Below, in pieces: positions 17,699 to 29,622 of a DNA stretch of 64,000 nucleotides. The stretch's first letter is position 1; each line of letters opens with the position of its first letter. Source of the DNA: Chitinophaga pinensis (lineage in GTDB: Bacteria > Bacteroidota > Bacteroidia > Chitinophagales > Chitinophagaceae); contig CALQSB010000003.1 of assembly GCA_943333125.1 (NCBI GenBank), positions 1 through 64,000 of the forward strand, given 5' to 3'. A model generated the notes under the pieces. It had not been told where the DNA came from. It saw only the letters and a list, made by a program, of their open reading frames with translations, and searched no databases. Position numbers and translations under genes: made by a program.

Positions 17699-17785
17699 AA
17701 AACTGATTACATGCATAAGAATCCCATTTTATTTAGATTCTTCATTAATTAGTTATTCTCAAAAAAAATAATATTGAGTTATTCA

Positions 17786-18730
17786 ATGAAAAAAATATTA
17801 ATTTTTATTGCTTGTTTTTTTCTGCTTATTTTCCTGCTCGACAGGTCAATCAATTTTGTATTTGAGAAATATATCTTTAGTAAAACTTTCTCAGGTGAAA
17901 GCGGGGGTAATACCAATTATTTATTTAAGAAAAAAAAGGATGTTAAGTTTATCATTCTTGGTTCTTCTCGTGCAAAAAACATGATCAATCCTGCTTTTAT
18001 TACAGCTTTCAATACCGAAGGGTATAATGCAGGAATAAACGGTGTCGGGGGAATCTTGTATATGAATGCATTGGTGGATCTTATTCTGCATAACAATACA
18101 AAGCCAGATTATATTGTTTTGCAAACAGACGAACGTGACTACCGTTATAAGAAAGTAAATTCCTATAATGCTCAGATTACACCCCTGTACCCTTATTTGA
18201 ATGACTCAAAAGTCTTACAGCAATATGCAGCATCATTAGGTTATCAGGAAAAACTCAAATTGCAATTCAAACTTTACAGATACAATGGAAAGTTTTACAA
18301 CATAATTACCAATTATCTGAAAAAAGACAAAAACAAAGAGAAAGATGGATATACTCCTTTAAAAGGAACGATGAATAAAGAGATTGATATTGATACCGTT
18401 GAAATCGAAACAAGATTAGATCCTTTAAAACTGGCGGCATTAGATAATATTATTAATGTTTGTAAGGAAAATAAAATAAAATTATTCATTGTCTTTCCGC
18501 CCAGTTATCAAAATGGATTATATAAAGAGAAAAACCTTAATAATTTAATCAACGTCATTTCCTCACGACATGATGTTGATGTTATTAATATGGCCAATGT
18601 GAATAATTTAAAAGATTTACAGGAAAATATTAACTGGAAAGATGACGCACATTTAAATTATATCGGCTCAGATAAGTTTAGTCAATATCTGAATGATAGT
18701 ATAAAAATAAAACTTAGCACTATTCATTAA
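17786..18730 (+). CDS. Membrane-anchored SGNH-hydrolase-like protein (DltD/AlgJ-type partner of MBOAT)
   Basis: About 314 residues from ATG 17786; a TTG four codons earlier is less likely. One N-terminal membrane helix (residues 2-22) anchors a periplasmic domain. ILGSSR (S60-S61, with S61 at the GDS-serine position) and DDAH (D286, H289) near the C-terminus give the Ser and Asp-x-x-His of the SGNH fold; GINGVGG may be an intermediate block. Such proteins pair with MBOAT acyltransferases to finish O-acylation of exported polysaccharides. The MBOAT gene follows after 42 bases, which strongly supports this. The protein probably handles the acyl transfer on the periplasmic side; the glycan is unknown. 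Confidence 0.75.
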   Translation: MKKILIFIACFFLLIFLLDRSINFVFEKYIFSKTFSGESGGNTNYLFKKKKDVKFIILGSSRAKNMINPAFITAFNTEGYNAGINGVGGILYMNALVDLILHNNTKPDYIVLQTDERDYRYKKVNSYNAQITPLYPYLNDSKVLQQYAASLGYQEKLKLQFKLYRYNGKFYNIITNYLKKDKNKEKDGYTPLKGTMNKEIDIDTVEIETRLDPLKLAALDNIINVCKENKIKLFIVFPPSYQNGLYKEKNLNNLINVISSRHDVDVINMANVNNLKDLQENINWKDDAHLNYIGSDKFSQYLNDSIKIKLSTIH

Positions 18731-18772
18731 TAATGTAACCCAATCTGCAGTCTTTTTTAACAGTAAAACTTT

Positions 18773-20179
18773 ATGTTATTTAATTCAATTGTATTTCTGA
18801 TTTTCTTCACAGTGACTTTTTTTCTGTTTTATTTTCTAAATGGAACAGGGAGAAAAATTTTACTTTTTGTAGCAAGCAGTATTTTCTATATGTGGTTCAT
18901 ACCGGTTTATGTATTGATCCTTTATTTAACCATACTCATAGATTATTTTTCAGCAATTGGAATAGAAAACAGCACATCATCTAAAGCAAAAAAAAGACAT
19001 TTGCTTACCGGGATAATCAATACTTGTCTGGTACTTTTTGTTTTTAAATACTATAATTTCTTCATCGATAATTATAATTTTCTTGGTTCTGGTCATTTAA
19101 AACATTGGGAAGTGATATTACCTATAGGTTTATCTTTTCACGTATTTCAAAGTTTGAGCTATGTGATTGAAGTTTACAGAGGTAATATCAAAGCGGAAAG
19201 GAATTTGCTGGTATATTCAAATTTTGTGATGATGTTCCCGCAATTGGTTGCAGGTCCGATAGAAAGAGCCAGCAATCTTTTGCCTCAACTAAAAAAATGT
19301 GATCATAAAATTCAGTATTCCGATTTTATGATTGGATTTTCAAGATTCATCTGGGGGTTGTTTAAAAAAGTTGTAGTTGCGGATACGGCGTCTATATATG
19401 TTGATGCGGTTTATAATAATTACACACATCATTCAGGTCCAACGTTAATCCTTGCAACCCTTCTTTTTGCTGTTCAGATTTATTGCGATTTTTCGGGATA
19501 TTCCGACATGGCTATCGGAGTTGCCAGAATGATGGGATTTCGCTTCAAAGAGAATTTTGCATTACCGTATTTTTCAAAAAGCGTTACGGAATTCTGGAGA
19601 AGATGGCATATGTCTTTATCCAGCTGGCTAAGAGATTATTTATACATTTCGTTTGGTGGCAGCCGTAAGGGCAAATTCAGAACGTACATTAATTTAATGC
19701 TCACCATGTTGATCGGTGGTTTATGGCATGGGGCTTCCTGGAATTTTGTAATCTGGGGAGGATTAAATGGATTGTATCTGTCGGTTGAAAAAGCATTGGG
19801 TGTAGTGGTTACCAACCCAAGAAATATTCTAATTAAACTGGCAAAAAGCTCCCTAGTTTTTATTCTTATTTGTTTCACCTGGGTTTTTTTTAGAGCTGCA
19901 ACATTTTCACAGGCAAATGTCATTATTCATAAAATGATTCTCGATCATCAATGGTCGCATTTTAATCCATTAAATACCAATATGCTGGCTTCGGTTTTTG
20001 CATCTATAGGAATTATGTTGGTGACGGAATATGCTGTTTTAAGAAAAAAATCATTCGATTCGATTTACTCATTAAAGCGCGGCGGTTTGTGGCTGGCAGC
20101 ATCCTCTGTATTGTTTTTCCTTTATATTATTTTGTTTGGTAACTCAGAAGGTGGACAATTCATATATTTTCAGTTTTAG
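18773..20179 (+). CDS. MBOAT O-acyltransferase (AlgI/DltB-like)
   Basis: A 468-residue polytopic protein of the membrane-bound O-acyltransferase family. Hallmarks are VAGPIERA, FWRRWHMSLSSWLRDYLYIS and GGLWHGASWNF, with H319 the expected catalytic histidine. About ten helices surround this core. MBOATs of this group move acyl groups from a cytosolic donor across the membrane for addition to extracellular glycans, together with an SGNH partner, here the gene just upstream. The family length of 450-500 residues is matched. No acyl carrier or ligase accompanies this pair directly; a related and fuller cassette lies about 2.8 kb downstream beyond the ATP synthase genes. Confidence 0.92.
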   Translation: MLFNSIVFLIFFTVTFFLFYFLNGTGRKILLFVASSIFYMWFIPVYVLILYLTILIDYFSAIGIENSTSSKAKKRHLLTGIINTCLVLFVFKYYNFFIDNYNFLGSGHLKHWEVILPIGLSFHVFQSLSYVIEVYRGNIKAERNLLVYSNFVMMFPQLVAGPIERASNLLPQLKKCDHKIQYSDFMIGFSRFIWGLFKKVVVADTASIYVDAVYNNYTHHSGPTLILATLLFAVQIYCDFSGYSDMAIGVARMMGFRFKENFALPYFSKSVTEFWRRWHMSLSSWLRDYLYISFGGSRKGKFRTYINLMLTMLIGGLWHGASWNFVIWGGLNGLYLSVEKALGVVVTNPRNILIKLAKSSLVFILICFTWVFFRAATFSQANVIIHKMILDHQWSHFNPLNTNMLASVFASIGIMLVTEYAVLRKKSFDSIYSLKRGGLWLAASSVLFFLYIILFGNSEGGQFIYFQF

Positions 20180-20341: not shown

Positions 20342-21472
20342 ATGGTAGCGAAGCTCCTAAAATATATGTTGGTAGCCATTTTTGGGCTTTTTTCGTTGTT
20401 ATTTTCATATTCAGTTATGGCTCAGGAACCAACGCCTGAAACATCATCCGAAAACCTTGCTCCAAAAGAAGGGAAATTAGACCCTGCTAAAATTATCATG
20501 GATCATATTAAGGATAACCATGAATTTCATTTTTTTACTATAGAAAATAAAGAAAATCCACACGAATCTTTCCATGCCACCATTCCTTTGCCTGTGTTGG
20601 TATATTCAAAAGAACATGGAGTTGCGTTTTTCTCTTCTGCAAAATTTGGTCATGAAGGAGAAGAAGTGGTAGAGGGTTTGTACAAATACAATGAACTTAA
20701 AGAAATTGTAGCCACAGACGGAAGTACAGTGTATGATTTTTCTTTGACAAAGAATGTGGTTCAAATGATATTGGCGCTTACGTTGCTGGTAGTTTTAATG
20801 ACAGGGATTGCTAAAAAATACAAAAACGGATATGGTGTTACTTCTGCACCAAAAGGCTGGCAGAATGCAATAGAGCCTATCATTACTTTTGTAAGAGATG
20901 ATGTAGCTAAACCAAACTTGGGTAAAAAATGGAATAAATATCTTCCTTATTTGCTTACTGTGTTTTTCTTCATACTGATACTCAATATTTTTGGTTTGAT
21001 ACCTGGTTCGGCAAATGTTACAGGCAATACCGCTTTCACTGCTGTAATGGGACTTATTTCTGCGGTTGTAATTTTAGCGAGTACTAACGGTCATTTCTGG
21101 AAGCATATTTTATGGCCTCCCGGAGTTCCTTTTTTAGTAAAATTGATTTTGATTCCGGTTGAGTTAGCAGGTGTTTTAATTATTAAACCTGCAGCGTTAA
21201 TTATACGTCTTTTCGCCAACATGGTGGCAGGGCATATTATCATTTTGAGTTTTATTTCGCTCATATTTATTTTCGGTGAGATGAGTAAAGTGGCAGGTTG
21301 GGGATTTTCTCCGGTGTCTATTTTGTTTACCGTATTTATCTATGTTATAGAAATTCTGGTTGCTTTTATCCAGGCCTTCATTTTTACAAATCTGACAGCA
21401 GTATTTATCGGTCAGGCTTTTGAAGGCGAACATGAGCATCATGATGGCGATGCACATCATGCAACAGCGTAA
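20342..21472 (+). CDS. atpB: F0F1 ATP synthase subunit a
   Basis: A 376-residue subunit a of the membrane F0 sector, which forms the proton half-channels. It has a signal peptide (about 1-27, ending VMAQ) and a periplasmic N-terminal extension of about 115 residues, as is usual in Bacteroidota and longer than in E. coli. The conserved helix RLFANMVAGHIIIL contains the essential arginine, here R289. LIPGSANVTGNTAFTAVMGL is another family block. The C-terminus is His-rich (EHEHHDGDAHHATA). It is first in an atpB-E-F-H run with a good promoter 20 bases upstream. Identification is secure. Confidence 0.96.
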   Translation: MVAKLLKYMLVAIFGLFSLLFSYSVMAQEPTPETSSENLAPKEGKLDPAKIIMDHIKDNHEFHFFTIENKENPHESFHATIPLPVLVYSKEHGVAFFSSAKFGHEGEEVVEGLYKYNELKEIVATDGSTVYDFSLTKNVVQMILALTLLVVLMTGIAKKYKNGYGVTSAPKGWQNAIEPIITFVRDDVAKPNLGKKWNKYLPYLLTVFFFILILNIFGLIPGSANVTGNTAFTAVMGLISAVVILASTNGHFWKHILWPPGVPFLVKLILIPVELAGVLIIKPAALIIRLFANMVAGHIIILSFISLIFIFGEMSKVAGWGFSPVSILFTVFIYVIEILVAFIQAFIFTNLTAVFIGQAFEGEHEHHDGDAHHATA

Positions 21473-21490
21473 TTTATTATTCACTCATAA

Positions 21491-21751
<261 letters not shown>

Positions 21752-21762
21752 TCGCCCAACTC

Positions 21763-21808
21763 ATTACTGCATCTGAAGCACAGGGCGGAGGATGCAGTAA
21801 TATTTTTT
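21763..21808 (+). terminator. Terminator-like attenuator between atpE and atpF
   Basis: ATTACTGCATC (21763-21773) and GATGCAGTAAT (21791-21801) form a perfect 11-bp stem with a 17-base loop, followed by ATTTTTT. The element lies inside the operon just after the subunit c gene. Partial termination or 3'-end stabilisation would give the extra c-subunit mRNA the rotor needs. Function is inferred. Confidence 0.7.
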
Positions 21809-21839
21809 CTGGAATTGATCATTATAACAACATAATATT

Positions 21840-22334
21840 ATGGATTTACTATTACCACATTTAGGTTTATTCGTTTGGACGCTACTCGCGTTTTTAATTG
21901 TGTTTTTGATTCTTAAAAAGTCTGCATGGCCAATGATCCTAAAAGGATTGAATGAACGTGAAGCAAATATTGCCGACTCCATCGCAACGGCCGAAAGAGT
22001 AAAAAAAGAAATGGCTCAGTTGAAAAGCGAAAATGAAGTACTCCTTCAAAGCGCTAGAGAAGAAAGATCAGCCATGCTTAAAGATGCAAAGGACATTAAA
22101 GACAGATTGATTAACGATGCAAAGGAAGAAGCCAAAGCGCAGGCTGCCAAAATAATTACAGAAGCAAACGCTTCAATTCAACATCAAAAAATGGCCGCTT
22201 TAACGGATATTAAAAACCAGGTTGGAAAAATGGTGGTGGAAGTAAGTGAAAAAATATTGAGAAGAGAGCTTTCCGATAAAACCCAACAGGAGTCTTACAT
22301 CAGCAAATTGGCAGAAGAAATTAAATTGAATTAA
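21840..22334 (+). CDS. atpF: F0F1 ATP synthase subunit b
   Basis: A 164-residue peripheral-stalk subunit: one N-terminal membrane helix (about residues 8-27, GLFVWTLLAFLIVFLILKK) followed by a long charged amphipathic helix with coiled-coil character (ERVKKEMAQLKSENEVLLQ and onward) to the C-terminus. It dimerises to hold the F1 head through the delta subunit encoded next (20-base spacer). Length is normal. It lies 88 bases after atpE, separated by the terminator-like hairpin, so its expression may be lower than that of subunit c. Confidence 0.95.
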   Translation: MDLLLPHLGLFVWTLLAFLIVFLILKKSAWPMILKGLNEREANIADSIATAERVKKEMAQLKSENEVLLQSAREERSAMLKDAKDIKDRLINDAKEEAKAQAAKIITEANASIQHQKMAALTDIKNQVGKMVVEVSEKILRRELSDKTQQESYISKLAEEIKLN

Positions 22335-22353
22335 GTAAAAGAATATCAGCGTT

Positions 22354-22917
22354 ATGAGTAACCCAAGATTAGCCGGAAGATATGCAAAAAGTTTACTTGA
22401 TTTGTCTATCGAACAAAATCAACTGGACGTGGTTTTTCAGGACATTAAAATGCTGGAGGCAATATGCCGGTCTAATCCCGATTTTGTGGCCATGCTTAAA
22501 AGTCCGGTAATAAAAGCAGATAAAAAAGAAAAAATAATTGAAGCGGTAATTTATAATAAAGTGTGTGCAATCACAGTGTCTTTTTTTAAATTGCTTGTTA
22601 ATAAAGCCCGGGAATATAGTTTGCCTGAAATTTTAAATGCATTTATTGAGCAATATAATTCGCTCAATAATATTCATACCATAAAGTTAACCACAGCTGT
22701 CCCCGTTAGTGATTCTTTAAAAGAGGCTATTGTAAATAAAATCAAATCGGGTACGCCTTATCAAAAAATAGAATTAGAAACTGCGGTAAAAGATGACCTC
22801 ATTGGTGGGTTTACTTTAGAAATGGGAGGAACCTTAATTGACACCAGTATTTTAAAAGAACTTAATGATGTGAAGAAGCAGTTTAAAAATAACGAGTATA
22901 TACATAGCATTAGATAA
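22354..22917 (+). CDS. atpH: F0F1 ATP synthase subunit delta
   Basis: A 187-residue delta (OSCP) subunit that joins the b-dimer stalk to the F1 alpha subunits. The start NPRLAGRYAKSLLDLSIEQ and the C-terminal DDLIGGFTLEMGGTLIDTSI are the classic blocks. It is the last ATP synthase gene here: the usual atpA (alpha) and atpG (gamma) do not follow, and the next gene, after 40 bases, is an unrelated membrane-anchored protein. A hairpin directly behind the stop may end the transcript. Confidence 0.95.
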   Translation: MSNPRLAGRYAKSLLDLSIEQNQLDVVFQDIKMLEAICRSNPDFVAMLKSPVIKADKKEKIIEAVIYNKVCAITVSFFKLLVNKAREYSLPEILNAFIEQYNSLNNIHTIKLTTAVPVSDSLKEAIVNKIKSGTPYQKIELETAVKDDLIGGFTLEMGGTLIDTSILKELNDVKKQFKNNEYIHSIR

Positions 22918-22943
22918 TTTGGAAAAATAAATTAATTTCCAAA
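22918..22943 (+). terminator. Hairpin after atpH
   Basis: TTTGGAAA and TTTCCAAA form an 8-bp stem with a 10-base loop starting one base after the atpH stop. A T-run is missing on the plus strand, so termination is uncertain, but it marks the end of the truncated atp cluster. Confidence 0.4.
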
Positions 22944-22957
22944 AACATTCAATTCAA

Positions 22958-23884
22958 ATGAAGCGCTTCCTGCAAAATACTTTAATTTTCTTTTTATTTT
23001 TCTTTACGCTTTTTTATATTTTGCAATACATACAGGAAATTCCCAAGAGAAAAAAACTCGCCCAAAAAACAGAAAAAAATTATATAAAGTGGACAGGATT
23101 TAAGAAGGCGTCTCCCAATACGGTGTTCCTGGGGTCTAGTAAAATGTACTGTTCTATAAATCCCTCCGTTTTTGATTCCATCACTTCATTACATAGTTAT
23201 AACCTAGCTACAGCTTCGCAATCATTGATAGAATCTTATTATTTTTTGGATTATGCGATTACCCAACATGCTGAAATTAAATATGCGGTGGTTGGCTTGT
23301 CTCAATCTGCTTTTAATGAAATTGATTATTATCATGCTCTTGCTAATGCTGAATATCTTGACAAAAAACACAAATGGAATTTCATTGTCAACGGATTGGG
23401 TTTGAAGGGAATCTGTTTTCAACTAATACCGTTTTTAAAATATCAAGGATATATAGACCTAATGGGTAACAAGAAAAATAATGAGAAAAGCAGTTGGGAA
23501 AATGGATATTATAGAGATTCGAAAATTATTGATTCCTTAAAATTCGACAATAACTTAACTAATTCAAACATTGATACTCTAATAAACCCGGAAAGGATTA
23601 AATACATGTCCAAAATTGTTGAATTATGTAAAGAAAAAAATATTGTCTTGGTATTCACAAGAACCCCTCTATATCCAAAGCTTCATCATTCAATGGACTT
23701 TGAAATTGCATTTATTGATTCATTGTGTAAGGGATATCAAACTCCTTTTTTTCATGATTATCCAATATCTTCGTACAACAAAGCCGACTTCTCCAATCAA
23801 GTACATAATAATATTACGGGTGCAGTGAAGACTTCGACTTTTCTGGCTAATTGGTTTTTAAAAAACATTGTAAACCGAAGTTAA
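22958..23884 (+). CDS. Membrane-anchored SGNH-like protein of the acylation cassette
   Basis: A 308-residue protein with an N-terminal membrane helix (residues 6-24) and a periplasmic domain. VFLGSSKMYCSINPS (S60/S61) matches the serine block of DltD/SGNH partners of MBOAT enzymes, like the protein at 17786. Near the C-terminus the expected D-x-x-H reads N-Q-V-H, with an Asp a few residues earlier; the triad may thus be altered or use the other Asp. It opens a run of genes (adenylation enzyme, VOC, GNAT, carrier protein, MBOAT) all on the plus strand. I infer a role in the final acyl transfer to a surface glycan. Confidence 0.6.
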   Translation: MKRFLQNTLIFFLFFFTLFYILQYIQEIPKRKKLAQKTEKNYIKWTGFKKASPNTVFLGSSKMYCSINPSVFDSITSLHSYNLATASQSLIESYYFLDYAITQHAEIKYAVVGLSQSAFNEIDYYHALANAEYLDKKHKWNFIVNGLGLKGICFQLIPFLKYQGYIDLMGNKKNNEKSSWENGYYRDSKIIDSLKFDNNLTNSNIDTLINPERIKYMSKIVELCKEKNIVLVFTRTPLYPKLHHSMDFEIAFIDSLCKGYQTPFFHDYPISSYNKADFSNQVHNNITGAVKTSTFLANWFLKNIVNRS

Positions 23885-23979
23885 AAAATTCAAACAACGC
23901 CATTGAAAAACAAAAGCAGTATTTCAATTTTTGAAATTTGTTTATTCTCATGGTTTGAAGAATTGAATTATTAAATCAA

Positions 23980-25485
23980 ATGAGTATGTTTAATGATTTT
24001 GTTATTGGTAAATTTCTTAGCGCAGTAAATAACTATCCCGATAAAAATGCATTTTGCATTGCCGGCAAATTCTACAGCTACAATGATTTTGCTCAGCATA
24101 TTTCAAAGATTCGTCAAAAAATTCAAACCATCAAAGGGACTTCCGAAATAATTGGCTTGATTGCAAATGATGATATTGAAACGTATGCGTCAATTTTTGC
24201 AATTTGGTTTGAAGGTTTTGCTTATGTTCCTCTTCATCCAAAGCAACCAATGGAAAGAAATCTGCAGATTATTAACCAGGCAGATATCACATGGGTTATC
24301 AACTCTCAAAACAACAATCCATTTGAAGGATTAGATGTTGTTTTTGTTGGAGATTTAATTTTCACTGAACTATTATTAAAACCTAATCTTGTGGATGAGG
24401 ATAAACTTGCTTACATCCTTTTCACTTCAGGAAGTACGGGAATGCCCAAAGGTGTTCAGATAAACAGAAAAAATGTTGGCGCATTTATGAAGTCATTCTG
24501 GGAAACGGGTTTTCAGGTTAATGAAAGCGACAAATGTTTACAATGTTTCGACCTCACTTTTGATGTATCTGTTCAGGCATTTCTTACTCCACTAACAAAG
24601 GGCGCCTGTACATATACTATCCCACATGAGCAAATAAAATACAGTTATATCTATGGATTACTTGAAGATCATCATTTGACTTTTTGTGTTATGGCCCCGT
24701 CGATGATTAGATTCCTTCGTCCATATTTTGATGAAATACATTCAGAAAGTGTAAAATATTGTATCCTTACTGCAGAAGCTTCCCCTTTAGAATTAGCTAT
24801 GGAATGGTCTGCCTGTATTCCTAATGCTGAAGTCTTTAATTTTTACGGACCCACAGAAGCTACTATTTATTGCACTTATCATAAATTAAAAAATGACGGC
24901 AAAAATAAAGAACTCAATGGCATGCTTTCTATTGGTAAACCAATGAATGGAGTCAACGCAATTATTGTTGATGAAAATAGTAATGTTCTTTCAGTAAATC
25001 AAAAAGGGGAAATGTGTATCAGTGGTGATCAAATTACACCTGGATACTGGAAGAATCCTCAAAAAAATTCGGAATCTTTTTTTACCAAAGATTATCAAGG
25101 AAAGACAACCCGTTATTATAAAACAGGAGATCTGTGTTATTTCGATGAAGATGGAGATATCATGCTCTCCGGACGTTTGGATTATCAGGTTAAAATTCAA
25201 GGATACAGAATTGAGCTCGGAGAAATAGAATATCACGCTCGCGAATACATGAATGGAAACAATGCAGTTGCTATTGCTTTTGAAAATAAGACCGGTAATA
25301 ATGAAATTGCTCTTTTTGTTGAAAGTGAATCCTGTAACATAAATCTTCTTCTGGATTATTTGAAAACAAAATTACCTCCTTATATGGTTCCGGTAAAAAC
25401 AATAGTAATTGAAATATTCCCATTAAATGCCAATGGAAAAATGGATAGGTTAGTTTTAAAAAATTCAATTGTCAAATCGTCTTAA
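23980..25485 (+). CDS. Amino-acid adenylation enzyme (DltA-like AMP-binding)
   Basis: A 501-residue stand-alone adenylation domain of the ANL superfamily. Core motifs are visible in order: A3 LFTSGSTGMPKGV (147-159), A4 FDVSV with D195 at the position that binds the substrate alpha-amino group, A5 NFYGPTEAT, A7 KTGDLCYFDEDGD, A8 GRLDYQVKIQGYRIELGEIE and A10 NANGKMDR. The A4 Asp and the DltA-like size argue for amino-acid rather than fatty-acid activation. It would make an aminoacyl-AMP and load the carrier protein encoded three genes on. The family is clear; the amino acid and the carrier assignment are inferred. Confidence 0.85.
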   Translation: MSMFNDFVIGKFLSAVNNYPDKNAFCIAGKFYSYNDFAQHISKIRQKIQTIKGTSEIIGLIANDDIETYASIFAIWFEGFAYVPLHPKQPMERNLQIINQADITWVINSQNNNPFEGLDVVFVGDLIFTELLLKPNLVDEDKLAYILFTSGSTGMPKGVQINRKNVGAFMKSFWETGFQVNESDKCLQCFDLTFDVSVQAFLTPLTKGACTYTIPHEQIKYSYIYGLLEDHHLTFCVMAPSMIRFLRPYFDEIHSESVKYCILTAEASPLELAMEWSACIPNAEVFNFYGPTEATIYCTYHKLKNDGKNKELNGMLSIGKPMNGVNAIIVDENSNVLSVNQKGEMCISGDQITPGYWKNPQKNSESFFTKDYQGKTTRYYKTGDLCYFDEDGDIMLSGRLDYQVKIQGYRIELGEIEYHAREYMNGNNAVAIAFENKTGNNEIALFVESESCNINLLLDYLKTKLPPYMVPVKTIVIEIFPLNANGKMDRLVLKNSIVKSS

Positions 25486-25557
25486 TTATAACGGGGAAGT
25501 AAATAGAGCGTGAAAATAAATGATTTGAAATGAGGCCCAACTTTAAAATTTAAATAA

Positions 25558-25968
25558 ATGAATTCAAATCTTAAATTTCATCATGTAGGAATTGCCACAA
25601 AAAGTATTGACAAGTCTACAAAAATGTATGCTCAACTCGGATATATAGCCTCAGAAACAGTAGTTGAAATCTCTCAAAATGTAAAAATTTGTTTCTTAAC
25701 AAAAGAGGATAGCCCAATTCTGGAATTAGTAGAACCCTTGAATGCAGAGTCTCCAGTAACCAGAATGGTAACACAGTCCGGTACTACACCTTATCATACC
25801 TGCTATGAAGTGAAAGATATAAATGCAGCCGTAGAAGAACTGGAAGATATGAATTTCAGGCCTCTTTTCGAGCCAATGCAATCAGATGCCATGATGAATG
25901 GATTAATTTGTTATCTTTTCGCAGATGGAATAGGGTTGATTGAATTATATGAACCTGCGATAAAATAA
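25558..25968 (+). CDS. VOC-superfamily protein (glyoxalase/epimerase-like)
   Basis: A 136-residue protein of the vicinal oxygen chelate fold, starting LKFHHVGIATKSIDKSTKMY and ending GIGLIELYEPA, with a mid-protein PYHTCYEVKDI. Candidate metal ligands are His5/His6, a Glu in ILELVEP, the His in PYHTCYEV and the Glu in LIELYEP, arranged as in methylmalonyl-CoA epimerase relatives. It lies between the adenylation enzyme and the GNAT gene and touches the latter (stop directly followed by ATG). In this cassette it might epimerise or modify the acyl donor, but nothing in the sequence fixes the substrate. Confidence 0.75.
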   Translation: MNSNLKFHHVGIATKSIDKSTKMYAQLGYIASETVVEISQNVKICFLTKEDSPILELVEPLNAESPVTRMVTQSGTTPYHTCYEVKDINAAVEELEDMNFRPLFEPMQSDAMMNGLICYLFADGIGLIELYEPAIK

Positions 25969-26625
25969 ATGAAAGAATTTATGAGCAAATATCTATTCAG
26001 ACCAGCTAATTTAAACGATGTTGATTTTTTAGTTAACACGATAATTGAAGCCGAAAAATCGGGTAGTAATATATTAAGTTACTCCAGAGTGTTTAATTTG
26101 AAAGAAGAAGAGCTCGTGTCTATTTTTAAAGAGATGTTTTTAGAAGAAATTGATGGTTGCGAATTTTCTGTTTCAAATTATATTGTAGCCGAATTAGAAA
26201 ATAAAGTTGTTGCCGCTATTGGCGCCTGGGTAGAAGATATTGAAAATCCTTCTTCAAAAATTAAAAGCAATTTATTGGGGTATTATTTACCTAAAGAGTC
26301 AATATTATTTGCTTCACAGGCATCAAAGGTTACCTCTGAACTTATAATAATCCATCCCCCGGGAGCATTATCTCTGGTTATGGTTTATGTTTCTCCAGAT
26401 CATAGAGGGAATAACCTGATTGATTTATTAACAAAAGAACATATTAAGAAGAATCAAGGAATTACAGATTTGGCTGTACAAGTAATGGCCAATAATATAC
26501 CAGCAATTAGGGCGTACAATAAAATTGGATTTGAAACCGCACAAATCGTAAAATCAGAAGATGAAAAAATATTGAATTTTTTACCTGGCAACGAAAAATT
26601 ATTAATGAAAAAAAAATTAAATTAA
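25969..26625 (+). CDS. GNAT N-acetyltransferase of the acylation cassette
   Basis: A 218-residue acetyltransferase. The ATG used here follows the VOC stop directly; an alternative ATG at 25981 precedes SKYLFRPANLNDVDF, the usual GNAT start. Motif A is in MVYVSPDHRGNNLIDLLTKE, where HRGNNL is the acyl-CoA loop, and motif B in NNIPAIRAYNKIGFE. It sits 5 bases before the acyl carrier protein gene. I infer that it could N-acylate the amino acid that the upstream enzyme activates, before transfer to a glycan; acetylation of the sugar acceptor is another option. Family is firm, role speculative. Confidence 0.8.
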   Translation: MKEFMSKYLFRPANLNDVDFLVNTIIEAEKSGSNILSYSRVFNLKEEELVSIFKEMFLEEIDGCEFSVSNYIVAELENKVVAAIGAWVEDIENPSSKIKSNLLGYYLPKESILFASQASKVTSELIIIHPPGALSLVMVYVSPDHRGNNLIDLLTKEHIKKNQGITDLAVQVMANNIPAIRAYNKIGFETAQIVKSEDEKILNFLPGNEKLLMKKKLN

Positions 26626-26630
26626 AATTT

Positions 26631-26876
26631 ATGGAAGAAAATCAAATTATTGAAAGACTAGAAAAAATTTTCAGTTCAGTTTTTGGCAAAGAATCAATTG
26701 TGTTAACACGAACTACTAGCGCCGGAGATATCGCTGAATGGAATTCATTAAATCATATGATCCTCATTTCCGAAGTAGAGACTGCTTTTAATCTTAAATT
26801 TAAATTAAAAGAGCTGAACAAAATGCAAAATGTGGGTGATTTAATTGATCTTATTATTTCAAAGTCTATCGTTTAA
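26631..26876 (+). CDS. Acyl carrier protein (DltC-like)
   Basis: An 81-residue acidic helical protein with the phosphopantetheine site EWNSLNHM (S39). Asn precedes the Ser instead of the usual Asp. The rest, ILISEVETAFNLKFKLKELN, matches the helix III region of stand-alone carrier proteins linked to Dlt-like systems. It should carry the acyl or aminoacyl group from the adenylation enzyme to the MBOAT, whose gene starts 14 bases downstream. A 4'-phosphopantetheinyl transferase is not encoded nearby. Identity as a carrier protein is secure; the bound group is unknown. Confidence 0.88.
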   Translation: MEENQIIERLEKIFSSVFGKESIVLTRTTSAGDIAEWNSLNHMILISEVETAFNLKFKLKELNKMQNVGDLIDLIISKSIV

Positions 26877-26890
26877 AATAATCATTTCAA

Positions 26891-28348
26891 ATGGAATTTA
26901 ATAGCATATTATTTGTACTTTTTTTTAGTACTTTCTTTTTTCTATATTGGTTTATATTTAATAAAAACCTTAAGAAACAGAATTTATTAATTCTGGCAGG
27001 GAGCTATTTCTTTTATGCTTGCTCAGACTGGAGACTATTATCTTTATTAATTATCAGTTCATTTATTAATTATCAACTTGGTAAAAAAATTGCTGCAACT
27101 GATGATGAAAAACAAAAAGGATTACTTACCACTTTAGGTGTCACATTTGGTGTAGGACTTTTATTTTATTTTAAGTACTTGAATTTCTTTATAGATTCTT
27201 TTTCTAAGTTGATTGATAGTTTCGGGATTCACACTTCCACACATTCACTTAATATTATTCTTCCATTAGGACTTAGCTTTTATACTTTCAAAACGATTAG
27301 TTATTTATTGGATGTAAATTCGGAAAAAATAAAACCAACTAAAGACTGGGTCGTTTTTTTTAATTACGTTTCTTTTTTTCCAACAATGATTGCAGGCCCA
27401 ATAGATCGCGCCTCTTCATTTGCTCCTCAATTAGAAAAAGTAAGAGTGTTTAATTATGAAAACGCAACTACAGGTCTCCGACAAATTTTATGGGGGTTTT
27501 TTAAAAAATTAGTGATTGCTGATAATTGTGTTGAAATAACAAACAATTTATTTGATAATTATTTGAAATTGCCCGGTAGCTCCCTTGTGCTCGGTGCCTT
27601 TATTTATATAGTAGAAATCTATGCAGATTTTTCGGGCTATTCAGATATGGCTATTGGATTTTCACGCTTAATAGGTTTCAATGTCACCAAAAATTTTAAC
27701 TTCCCATTCTTTTCTCAAAACACAAGTGAATTCTGGAGAAGATGGCATATTTCATTAACCAGCTGGATGACAGAATATGTATACACTCCACTAACATTTG
27801 CTTTCAGATCCTGGGGTAAATCAGGATTATTATTAGCTATTGTAATCAATTTTGTATTGGTTGGATTGTGGCATGGTGCTTCCCTTAATTTTATTTTGTT
27901 TGGATTTTTACATGGCTGTTATTTTATTCCATTGGTTATTAATGGAACTGTAAACAAAAATCCTGCTAATACTACAGATAACTTCTTTTCTAATTTGAAA
28001 AGGTTTATAAACAGATCTGGTACATTTATCCTTGTCATGTTAACGGCTATGATATTGAGAGCAAATTCAATAACCGAAGCTTTTCATTACTATATAAAAA
28101 TATTTTCAAAATCACTTTTTTCAATCCCTGTCCTTCCTACCCAAAATCCAAAGTCAGACTTAGCTATTATATTTTTCATATTCATTATGTTCATCCTTGA
28201 ATGGTTTGGAAGACACACCGATTTCGCCTTGGAAAAATTGGGGTTAAAATGGCCTAAAATAATCAGATGGGGAATTTATATGATTTTTGTATTGGTCATT
28301 TTTATTTTTATGGCAAAACCACAGCAATTTGTGTATGCTCAGTTTTAA
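26891..28348 (+). CDS. MBOAT O-acyltransferase (DltB/AlgI-like), second copy
   Basis: A 485-residue polytopic acyltransferase closing the cassette. Family blocks are IAGPIDRASSF, EFWRRWHISLTSWMTEYVYTPL and VGLWHGASLNF, with H328 the expected catalytic histidine. It is clearly related to the MBOAT at 18773 but differs in its loops and C-terminus. By analogy with DltB it would accept the group carried by the upstream ACP and pass it across the membrane to the SGNH partner or directly to a glycan. It ends 11 bases from the stop of the convergent pyruvyl transferase gene, which bounds the cassette. Confidence 0.92.
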   Translation: MEFNSILFVLFFSTFFFLYWFIFNKNLKKQNLLILAGSYFFYACSDWRLLSLLIISSFINYQLGKKIAATDDEKQKGLLTTLGVTFGVGLLFYFKYLNFFIDSFSKLIDSFGIHTSTHSLNIILPLGLSFYTFKTISYLLDVNSEKIKPTKDWVVFFNYVSFFPTMIAGPIDRASSFAPQLEKVRVFNYENATTGLRQILWGFFKKLVIADNCVEITNNLFDNYLKLPGSSLVLGAFIYIVEIYADFSGYSDMAIGFSRLIGFNVTKNFNFPFFSQNTSEFWRRWHISLTSWMTEYVYTPLTFAFRSWGKSGLLLAIVINFVLVGLWHGASLNFILFGFLHGCYFIPLVINGTVNKNPANTTDNFFSNLKRFINRSGTFILVMLTAMILRANSITEAFHYYIKIFSKSLFSIPVLPTQNPKSDLAIIFFIFIMFILEWFGRHTDFALEKLGLKWPKIIRWGIYMIFVLVIFIFMAKPQQFVYAQF

Positions 28349-28359
28349 ATGATTTAGTT

Positions 28360-29622
28360 TTACTTAAAGTCATTCATCCAAGTTGCATTTCTATATGATA
28401 ATTTCTTGCAAGGTTCGAATATAGATTTGAAATAATTTTCGAAATCATACTTTTTTTCAACCAACACATTATCAATTTCCAATAATAATTTATCTGTCCA
28501 TCCTTCTGTTTGTGATTTGATAATAGGTATTGGATATTTAAATCCTTCTAAGAGTTCTGCTAGTCTGAAATCATTTCCTTCAATTGGAATGATGATAGTA
28601 TGTGAAACTAGTGATAACATGTTTGTATGAACCCGAGCACTAATAATACAATCACATTCTGCTAATTTCATTGCATATTCTTTGTAATTACGATGTCCAC
28701 TCATATTGGGTACATTGAATTTTTTAGCAAACATATCAATGATTTCTATATCTCCATAAGGCTCATTCGTACAAAAAACCACTTCTTTACCCAAAGCCCG
28801 AAGGTGCGACACAATTCGGGAAATTTCTTTTTCAGAAATCTTTACCCTGTCTGAAATATTGAAACCTACCTTGTTTTTATTTTTATGTAAATTAATCGTA
28901 GTGTCAAGAATGGTGTTTATTGCCGAATCGGGAGCCACTTCGATTATTGCTTCAGGTACTCCGTAATTAATTAAATTTTTCCTAGTTGTTTCACCACGGA
29001 TAATAATTTTTTCCATCTTGCTGTAAACATGTGCACAGATAGACTGAAATAATGCGGTATTTAGATTTACAGATTGATTAACTGCAGCAGTTTTGATGCC
29101 TAATTTCTGAGCTACTCTTATTTCTATTAATTGTCTTAGAAAAACATTGCCGCTATTAATATTGTTGTTGCCATTGCCATCATTTACTTCTCCTGCGCCA
29201 CTATACACATGCCAGTCAGAGGCTTTTAAGATTTTTGCTCTTTCCACATATGCATTCGTGTAAACAAACATTGAATTGTACCAACTTTTGAGGGGTTTTA
29301 ATAACGCTTTCCATTTATCAATTTTGAATTCAGTTTCATTGGCATATAACACTACTTCTCCCTTCTTTGCTTTAAAGGTCACCTCGTTTTCTTTGTTTAT
29401 TTTATTGATGATATCATCTGTCCACTTTTCAAATAATTTTAAAGGGTTATCATTTTTTAATAGCGTTTCAGCTTGATAACCATAAAGTCCAAAAGGCCGA
29501 CCATTGACGTTTATACTGCAGTCATTTACTTTATCGTGAAATAATTTGATGATCTCATGAGACAAAGCCTCATTTCCAATATTCGTTGTTTTGAGTTTTG
29601 TAACAAGGAAAATTTTTTTCAT
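28360..29622 (-). CDS. Polysaccharide pyruvyl transferase family protein
   Basis: A 420-residue protein of the CsaB/WcaK-type family. It begins KKIFLVTKLKTTNIGNEALS, where the N-terminal NxGNEA motif is typical, has a central GAGEVNDGNGN and GETTRKNLI, and a C-terminal CDCIISARVHTNMLSL followed by PIEGNDFRLAELLE. These enzymes add ketal-linked pyruvate from PEP to sugars of surface polysaccharides. It is on the opposite strand to both flanking genes. Residues about 70-120 form a longer charged insertion. The acceptor glycan is unknown; some family members are colanic acid-type WcaK proteins of unclear activity. Confidence 0.75.
   Translation of the reverse strand: MKKIFLVTKLKTTNIGNEALSHEIIKLFHDKVNDCSINVNGRPFGLYGYQAETLLKNDNPLKLFEKWTDDIINKINKENEVTFKAKKGEVVLYANETEFKIDKWKALLKPLKSWYNSMFVYTNAYVERAKILKASDWHVYSGAGEVNDGNGNNNINSGNVFLRQLIEIRVAQKLGIKTAAVNQSVNLNTALFQSICAHVYSKMEKIIIRGETTRKNLINYGVPEAIIEVAPDSAINTILDTTINLHKNKNKVGFNISDRVKISEKEISRIVSHLRALGKEVVFCTNEPYGDIEIIDMFAKKFNVPNMSGHRNYKEYAMKLAECDCIISARVHTNMLSLVSHTIIIPIEGNDFRLAELLEGFKYPIPIIKSQTEGWTDKLLLEIDNVLVEKKYDFENYFKSIFEPCKKLSYRNATWMNDFK

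Follow-up and report, generated by a model that had tools for sequence, protein, structure and literature searches.

A Dlt-like gene cassette with a GNAT gene in a Chitinophaga pinensis assembly and its possible role in surface glycan acylation

The six-gene cassette described here lies at positions 22,958 to 28,348 of a 64,000-nucleotide stretch of DNA of Chitinophaga pinensis (GenBank assembly GCA_943333125.1, 2.85 Mb; contig CALQSB010000003.1, positions 1 to 64,000; hereafter the window), and its closest described counterparts are systems that move acyl or aminoacyl groups. The Dlt system (DltXABCD) performs the D-alanylation of teichoic acids. In PatA, the tyrosine of an FxYxxF motif acts as an acyl shuttle, and in Dlt this tyrosine is located on the separate protein DltX; according to the part of the same 2025 source that treats them, MBOAT-SGNH pathways other than Dlt have no carrier protein, are fed by acyl-CoA and carry the motif on the MBOAT itself (PMC12148441). 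In Vibrio cholerae, glycine is added to lipopolysaccharide by D-alanylation-like machinery (Hankins et al. 2012, as cited in PMC3783018). In the biosynthesis of SB-203208, an adenylation enzyme, a carrier and a GNAT act together (SbzB/SbzC/SbzG; PMC6331615). For the O-antigen R-group of Flavobacterium psychrophilum (wfp), it is predicted that the acyl part is assembled on a carrier of its own before transfer to an amino sugar (PMC6519341). Finally, 3-(N-acetyl-L-alanyl)amido-3,6-dideoxyglucose (N-acetyl-L-alanyl-Qui3N) is known in Aeromonas glycans (PMC3210612).

Gene content, motifs and linkage suggest, with slightly better than even confidence, that the cassette is a Dlt-like trans-envelope acylation system whose donor would be an N-capped amino acid. 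Its genes are as follows (+, forward strand; aa, amino acids).

22958..23884, +, SGNH-like protein, 308 aa, with N-terminal membrane anchor, GSS at residues 59-61 and N280xxH283; proposed final transferase
23980..25485, +, stand-alone amino-acid adenylation enzyme, 501 aa; AMP-binding domain at 194.3 bits, above cut-off
25558..25968, +, VOC protein, 136 aa, candidate carrier-thioester epimerase; Glyoxalase_4 above cut-off
25969..26625, +, GNAT, 218 aa, proposed N-acyltransferase for a carrier-bound amino acid; Acetyltransf_1 at 30.6 bits (cut-off 20.7)
26631..26876, +, carrier protein, 81 aa, with phosphopantetheine serine S39; PP-binding at 17.5 bits, slightly below the cut-off of 20.8
26891..28348, +, MBOAT, 485 aa, with C-terminal FVYAQF and GLWHG (H328); Pfam MBOAT above cut-off

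The cassette genes and the proposed route

The original prediction, made from the DNA letters and their translations, had placed six genes in this order on one strand, and all six open reading frames were indeed found on the forward strand, separated from the SGNH-like gene to the MBOAT gene by 95, 72, 0, 5 and 14 nucleotides. The residues that it had singled out were borne out as well, as D195 of the adenylation enzyme is invariant in 15/15 aligned rows, S39 of the carrier is invariant in 14/14 aligned carriers, and H328 of the MBOAT sits in GLWHG. Its SGNH-like call held in part: the GSS motif is present and a profile comparison supports the kinship (see below), but N280 replaces an acidic residue and the protein matched no Pfam family.

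From the observed genes, motifs, linkage and gene fusions, the following chemical steps may be predicted. The adenylation enzyme would activate an amino acid and load it onto the pantetheine of S39 of the carrier. The GNAT would N-acylate, and in the simplest case N-acetylate, the carrier-bound aminoacyl group. For this lineage alone, inversion at the thioester's alpha carbon by the VOC protein may be added, the order of these two steps being provisional. The MBOAT, with H328, would move the acyl group from the carrier to its own FVYAQF tyrosine (Y482), upon which the SGNH-like protein would accept it (S61) and transfer it to a hydroxyl group of a surface glycan, the presumed acceptor.

The adenylation enzyme is of the amino-acid type, judging from its sequence. 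TIGR01733 (AA-adenyl) gave the top score among the NCBIfam models listed (309.8 bits, slightly below the cut-off of 317.4), and the best matches among solved structures were modules of non-ribosomal peptide synthetases (NRPS). The DltA model TIGR01734 scored 255.1 bits, below its equivalog cut-off of 559.85. Pocket residues, mapped by hand, read DVQVLAFIYK in the window and in the sister metagenome-assembled genome L003 (a Chitinophagaceae member; L numbers denote the loci compared), and DLMLFGVIFK in five relatives. An amino acid call from the pocket was attempted and dropped, the faintly proline-like pocket of the window and the faintly glycine-like pockets of the adenylation enzymes linked to hexapeptide acyltransferases (by code tables) being too weak a basis for a claim. 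At 1e-90, relatives of the adenylation enzyme, the window included, occurred in 11/294 genomes of the family and in 8/93 of the genus. The carrier matched NCBIfam acyl carrier protein models, all below their cut-offs.

The MBOAT ends in FVYAQF (residues 480-485), a C-terminal FxYxxF of the PatAB type. A strict C-terminal FxYxxF was found in 16/18 MBOATs at the compared loci, among which are the carrier-less upstream MBOATs of the window and of L003, and in four further complete MBOATs. Since these carrier-less MBOATs carry it too, the motif cannot distinguish carrier-fed from CoA-fed MBOATs. A same-strand carrier gene lies at most 150 nucleotides upstream of 17 of the 23 MBOATs at these loci. 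The remaining six are the two upstream copies (window, L003) and those of L022, in which the carrier is fused to the GNAT and lies 483 nucleotides away, of L025 and L174, in which SGNH-like genes intervene before the carrier, and of L084. The DltB model TIGR04091 scored 169.2 bits (equivalog cut-off 375), and the only two solved relatives found by sequence were DltB chains (8jem, 6bug). No ATG-, GTG- or TTG-started open reading frame of 20-99 aa with FxYxxF, as expected of a DltX-like protein, was found on either strand of positions 22801-28500. A second SGNH-like/MBOAT pair, its MBOAT ending in FIYFQF, is located upstream (17774-20179) with no adjoining adenylation or carrier genes, and lends itself to comparison with the carrier-linked MBOAT.

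Of the six proteins, the SGNH-like one is identified with the least certainty. It gave no Pfam family at E 0.01, nothing for DltD in Pfam at E 1 and no PDB match, only a sub-threshold match to DUF1574, and its AlphaFold model, built from two near-identical rows, is unreliable (mean predicted local distance difference test score 42.7). Its motifs are GSS (S61) and N280-x-x-H283; the position of N280 is D or E in five other SGNH-like proteins (two read by eye), and a sixth, L025, has no such motif. Kinship with MBOAT-neighbouring SGNH-like proteins is supported by profile comparison: over residues 177-307 the protein aligns with a profile made from four of these (hhalign probability 89.6%), in which the motif G, S and H are invariant, and one of the four, from L016, matches the upstream SGNH-like protein of the window (5e-13). 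SGNH-like genes near the GNAT (3/7 and 5/19 genomes of the two families treated below) were not used as evidence, the queries having been partly chosen by eye and some stemming from the same loci.

All six genes are intact and in the same order in L003. Nonsynonymous changes among all changed codons amounted to 0/5 for the VOC gene, 18/70 for the adenylation gene, 10/48 for the MBOAT gene, 1/2 for the carrier gene, 22/52 for the SGNH-like gene and 13/23 for the GNAT gene. Between these two loci, the GNAT and SGNH-like proteins evolve faster than the adenylation enzyme, the VOC protein and the MBOAT.

Linkage and role of the GNAT

A GNAT profile retrieved proteins from 7/294 genomes of the window's family (at 1e-20, the weakest at 5.8e-85), from 3/395 genomes phylum-wide and from 19/80 genomes of a second family (f35); the profile was made from proteins linked to adenylation enzymes and is thus biased to linked homologues, a bias that the score gap limits without removing it. 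The f35 family is labelled Ignavibacteria-type because the gene set of its locus L081 (genome G735) is that of the Ignavibacteria contig L004, with equal lengths and scores. By sequence, the GNAT family is discrete. All seven GNAT genomes of the window's family fall within the 11 genomes with the adenylation enzyme (hypergeometric 9e-12), and in 7/7 both this enzyme and the carrier are encoded within 500 nucleotides of the GNAT gene. Within 5 kb, the adenylation enzyme, the carrier and the MBOAT were found in 7/7, 7/7 and 5/7 genomes of the window's family and in 17/19, 17/19 and 7/19 genomes of f35. The f35 genomes without the adenylation enzyme (L087, L089) or without the carrier (L085, L098), all of which were retained in these counts, have the GNAT gene within about 400 nucleotides of a contig end. 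In addition, two gene fusions were found, both with Pfam domains above cut-off, namely GNAT-carrier in L022 (296 aa) and adenylation enzyme-GNAT in L091 (733 aa). Among the eight genus genomes positive for the adenylation enzyme, the same cluster contains the GNAT in seven (not L168) and the MBOAT in seven (not L171). The conserved core of the cassette, as seen in these sequences, is not a matter of chance.

Variant loci inform the role of the GNAT. In L018, L019, L023 and L024, a second GNAT type is located between the adenylation enzyme and the carrier, together with a hexapeptide acyltransferase (Pfam run on L018 only). In L171, adenylation enzyme, GNAT and carrier lie inside an amino-sugar cluster, in which two genes encode FdtA, another a DegT-family aminotransferase, which reached the cut-off of no specific model, and another a NeuD/PglD-type acyltransferase, which scored above cut-off. 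FdtA enzymes belong to 3-amino-3,6-dideoxyhexose pathways, and this setting is in keeping with the known N-acetyl-L-alanyl-Qui3N glycans. In L172 and L173, a formyltransferase lies between the adenylation enzyme and an extra carrier, followed by a GNAT, a carrier and an MBOAT; a further, unassigned protein occupies the SGNH place after the MBOAT, that of L172 having no NCBIfam match. Similarly, in L005 (Aquimarina), a formyltransferase gene is found two genes upstream of an adenylation enzyme-carrier pair. The theme that these loci appear to share is a carrier-bound amino acid with a neighbouring amine-acylating enzyme. Because such enzymes recur beside the adenylation and carrier genes, the GNAT is read as capping the carrier-bound amino acid.

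In f35, an additional AMP-ligase gene is present within 5 kb of the GNAT gene in 11/19 genomes (L042, L083, L084, L088-L091 and L094-L097), followed in L042 by genes resembling LuxE and LuxC (by eye). L041 and L088 contain two consecutive SGNH-like/carrier/MBOAT triads with a GNAT gene between them on the opposite strand.

Several observations weigh against the route proposed above. GNATs that use carrier-bound acyl donors exist (Sbz), and the cassette GNAT could likewise take the aminoacyl-carrier as its donor. L017 and L020 contain adenylation enzyme, GNAT and carrier with no MBOAT in the available sequence, each being bounded on one flank by the end of its contig (their genomes have 13 and 6 MBOAT matches elsewhere), and L168, on a 3.6-kb contig, has adenylation enzyme, carrier and MBOAT without a GNAT. 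The loop at the RGxG position, which we take to be the acetyl-CoA loop of the GNAT, reads RGNN in the window and two others, RGxG in six and RRKG in one of 10 rows. To these are added the bias of the GNAT profile and the N280 of the SGNH-like protein, which stands where others have the acid of the DxxH pair, in a protein with no reliable model.

It is unlikely that the GNAT is itself the terminal transferase, passing the aminoacyl group from the carrier to an amino sugar or another amine while the MBOAT and the SGNH-like protein serve a second fate or another acyl group. This would agree with SbzC and SbzI, which use carrier-bound acyl donors (PMC6331615), and with L017 and L020, which have no LbH-type acyltransferase in the available sequence either; the L022 fusion is compatible with both roles. 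However, a separate hexapeptide acyltransferase stands beside the second GNAT type at 4/4 loci and an MBOAT lies near the GNAT in 5/7 and 7/19 genomes, so that a transferase is often already there, and the co-occurrence of formyltransferases points to amine capping. Quite improbable, too, is a plain Dlt analogue, in which the carrier, the MBOAT and the SGNH-like protein would esterify a free amino acid to the glycan and the GNAT would act elsewhere, for example on a sugar amine as PseH does. The Dlt-like gene order, the weak similarity of the GNAT to the PseH model (18.4 bits, cut-off 93.1) and the GNAT-less L168 fit such an analogue, but an adenylation enzyme within 5 kb in 24/26 GNAT genomes and the fusions of the GNAT to the carrier and to the adenylation enzyme do not. 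There is very little likelihood that the genes form a small secondary-metabolite cluster whose product is an N-acyl amino acid or amide in free form, the MBOAT O-acylating a lipid or small molecule. The NRPS modules among the best solved matches of the adenylation enzyme and the AMP-ligases near the GNAT in 11/19 f35 genomes argue for it; no condensation domain was found by Pfam among the six proteins, the FxYxxF end of the MBOAT and the SGNH-like neighbours are marks of envelope acylation, and relatives (L016, L018 and L019, by eye, and L171) lie among glycan genes, all of which speak against it.

The VOC protein and the genomic setting

The original prediction had tied both the GNAT and the VOC gene to the adenylation, carrier and MBOAT genes and expected this linkage to recur in relatives. 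For the GNAT it does (7/7 and 17/19 genomes within 5 kb of the adenylation gene, plus the two fusions). For the VOC it does not: the gene is present within 5 kb of the GNAT in 1/7 genomes of the window's family and in 2/19 of f35, hence in only 3/26 GNAT genomes, and in 2/8 genus genomes positive for the adenylation enzyme (window, L003); in the two f35 genomes it also abuts FkbH. A VOC within the conserved core is ruled out by these counts. What stands of the predicted Dlt-analogous six-gene route, for this member of the Bacteroidota, is the set of adenylation enzyme, carrier, MBOAT and SGNH-like protein, to which the GNAT truly belongs.

The cassette VOC is not the ordinary methylmalonyl-CoA epimerase of its genome, because a separate copy (L027) passes TIGR03081 (124.8 bits versus a cut-off of 114.95) and the cassette VOC, at 63.9 bits, does not; three ordinary epimerases score 124.8-149.1 bits. 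The H/E/H/E positions of VOC epimerases and isomerases are kept as H9, E56, H80 and E129, which we take, from the epimerase literature, to be metal ligands. E37 is acidic also in five carrier- or FkbH-linked VOCs and is V in the three ordinary epimerases. Related VOCs (27-31% identity) adjoin FkbH, as confirmed by the FkbH model, in L004 (and L081), L045, L047 and L084, and a carrier lies beside FkbH in L045 and L047. In L104, the VOC gene and a carrier gene overlap, and the latter precedes an FkbH-like open reading frame cut at the locus end (38 bits, below cut-off). The relatives in L044 and L046 lie among glycan genes with no adjoining carrier, and have K for E56 and no acid at position 37. 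Thus, five of seven related loci outside the epimerase clade (L004, L045, L047, L084 and L104) adjoin FkbH and/or carrier genes, in a set that came from VOC searches and GNAT-linked loci and not from random sampling.

In the VOC tree, the epimerase clade was separated from the rest at 100/100, the window branch being long and its placement unsure. The VOC profile search was lax, as 291/390 genomes matched and ordinary epimerases pass 1e-18, and only its score gap was used (182, then 105, 92 bits and lower); the top five hits, window included, are all rows of the model, and L104 is the one new hit. The closest solved proteins are named Glyoxalase-I (3hdp, presumably from Clostridium acetobutylicum) and lactoylglutathione lyase. 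In 3hdp, a D aligns with E37, as in the FkbH- or carrier-linked VOCs, and 3hdp might in reality act on a carrier-bound thioester.

Judging from these comparisons, the VOC may plausibly serve as an epimerase of the carrier thioester. That it is instead a passenger, such as a detoxifying glyoxalase or a spare epimerase without a role in the cassette, is possible, if somewhat less than an even chance, and would be compatible with the acylation route. Its rarity among the genus genomes and the names of its two best solved matches would fit a passenger. Against this, no nucleotide separates its stop codon from the GNAT start, its protein is identical in L003 despite five synonymous codon changes, the genome has the separate epimerase L027, and most related VOC loci (5/7) adjoin FkbH and/or carrier genes. 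If the VOC does act on a carrier thioester, this would hint at what its subfamily does, the closest solved members of which bear the names glyoxalase I and lactoylglutathione lyase.

The cassette lies directly downstream of atpB-E-F-H (20342-22917), with atpA on a different contig of the same genome. Among 20 sampled genus genomes, atpH is followed by the cassette in the window and L003 only (the latter sampled as genome G746, which shares an identical 4500-nucleotide piece with L003), by atpA in four, and by other genes or a contig end in the rest; the cassette thus occupies a variable site. At 14-20 kb upstream are located glycosyltransferase, sugar-transferase, aminotransferase and polysaccharide-biosynthesis genes, and closely downstream a pyruvyl-transferase-like gene and a glycosyltransferase gene. 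A promoter and terminator scan gave counts close to chance (62 versus 69.6 and 8 versus 6.8).

Comparison with known systems

The cassette shares with Dlt a stand-alone adenylation enzyme, a carrier, a DltB-related MBOAT and an SGNH-like partner. It differs in that it yielded no DltX-like open reading frame, carries the shuttle motif on the MBOAT, includes a GNAT (and here a VOC), and is found in a Gram-negative-type host. Because the adenylation enzyme and the MBOAT score below the DltA and DltB cut-offs and no DltX-like open reading frame was found, the cassette falls outside Dlt proper. The glycine system of Vibrio cholerae, presumably AlmEFG, resembles it as an envelope amino-acid addition in a Gram-negative organism by what is described as D-alanylation-like machinery; to our knowledge, that system employs no GNAT, and its last acyltransferase is of another kind than an MBOAT-SGNH pair. 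PatA/PatB-type pairs, which acetylate peptidoglycan, alginate or cellulose, share the C-terminal FxYxxF of the MBOAT and the SGNH-like partner, but have, as far as the source describes them, no carrier and an acyl-CoA donor, whereas the cassette has an adenylation enzyme and a carrier, the latter encoded 14 nucleotides from the MBOAT (PMC12148441). The cassette is not of the PatAB type since it and its relatives contain carrier and adenylation genes, a carrier-bound donor being predicted. Unlike in the route proposed here, the Sbz GNAT draws its acyl donor from a carrier for the assembly of an antibiotic, and no MBOAT or SGNH partner is described in the available part of that source (PMC6331615). 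The wfp system likewise places the acyl group of a Bacteroidota glycan on a dedicated carrier, but this is a type II fatty-acid-like dihydroxyhexanoyl group, and the part of the source that concerns it describes no amino-acid adenylation (PMC6519341).

PMC12148441 keeps carrier-fed and CoA-fed systems apart, and loci that combine a carrier with the fused motif would allow MBOAT donor choice to be tested directly. The adenylation enzyme-GNAT-carrier module, set among amino-sugar genes in L171, is a concrete candidate for making N-acetyl-aminoacyl groups on glycans such as those reported in PMC3210612. A bolder and rather doubtful proposal is that the cassette represents a third kind of trans-envelope acylation, in which a carrier-fed MBOAT with a built-in shuttle motif would export N-capped amino acids. 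Exchangeable tailoring enzymes (a GNAT of either type, a formyltransferase, a VOC) would then determine, while the amino acid is on the carrier, both its stereochemistry and its cap, be it acetyl, formyl or another group, and the VOC would be a stand-alone epimerase of carrier-bound aminoacyl thioesters in place of the epimerisation domains of NRPS. The six-gene set was not named in the open-licence PubMed Central literature searched, mostly at title and abstract level, a scope that does not show absence from print. In its gene content, the cassette appears to resemble both Dlt and PatAB-type systems, mixing a carrier feed with a motif-bearing MBOAT, and is a recognisable, apparently undescribed cousin of the Gram-positive D-alanine decoration system.

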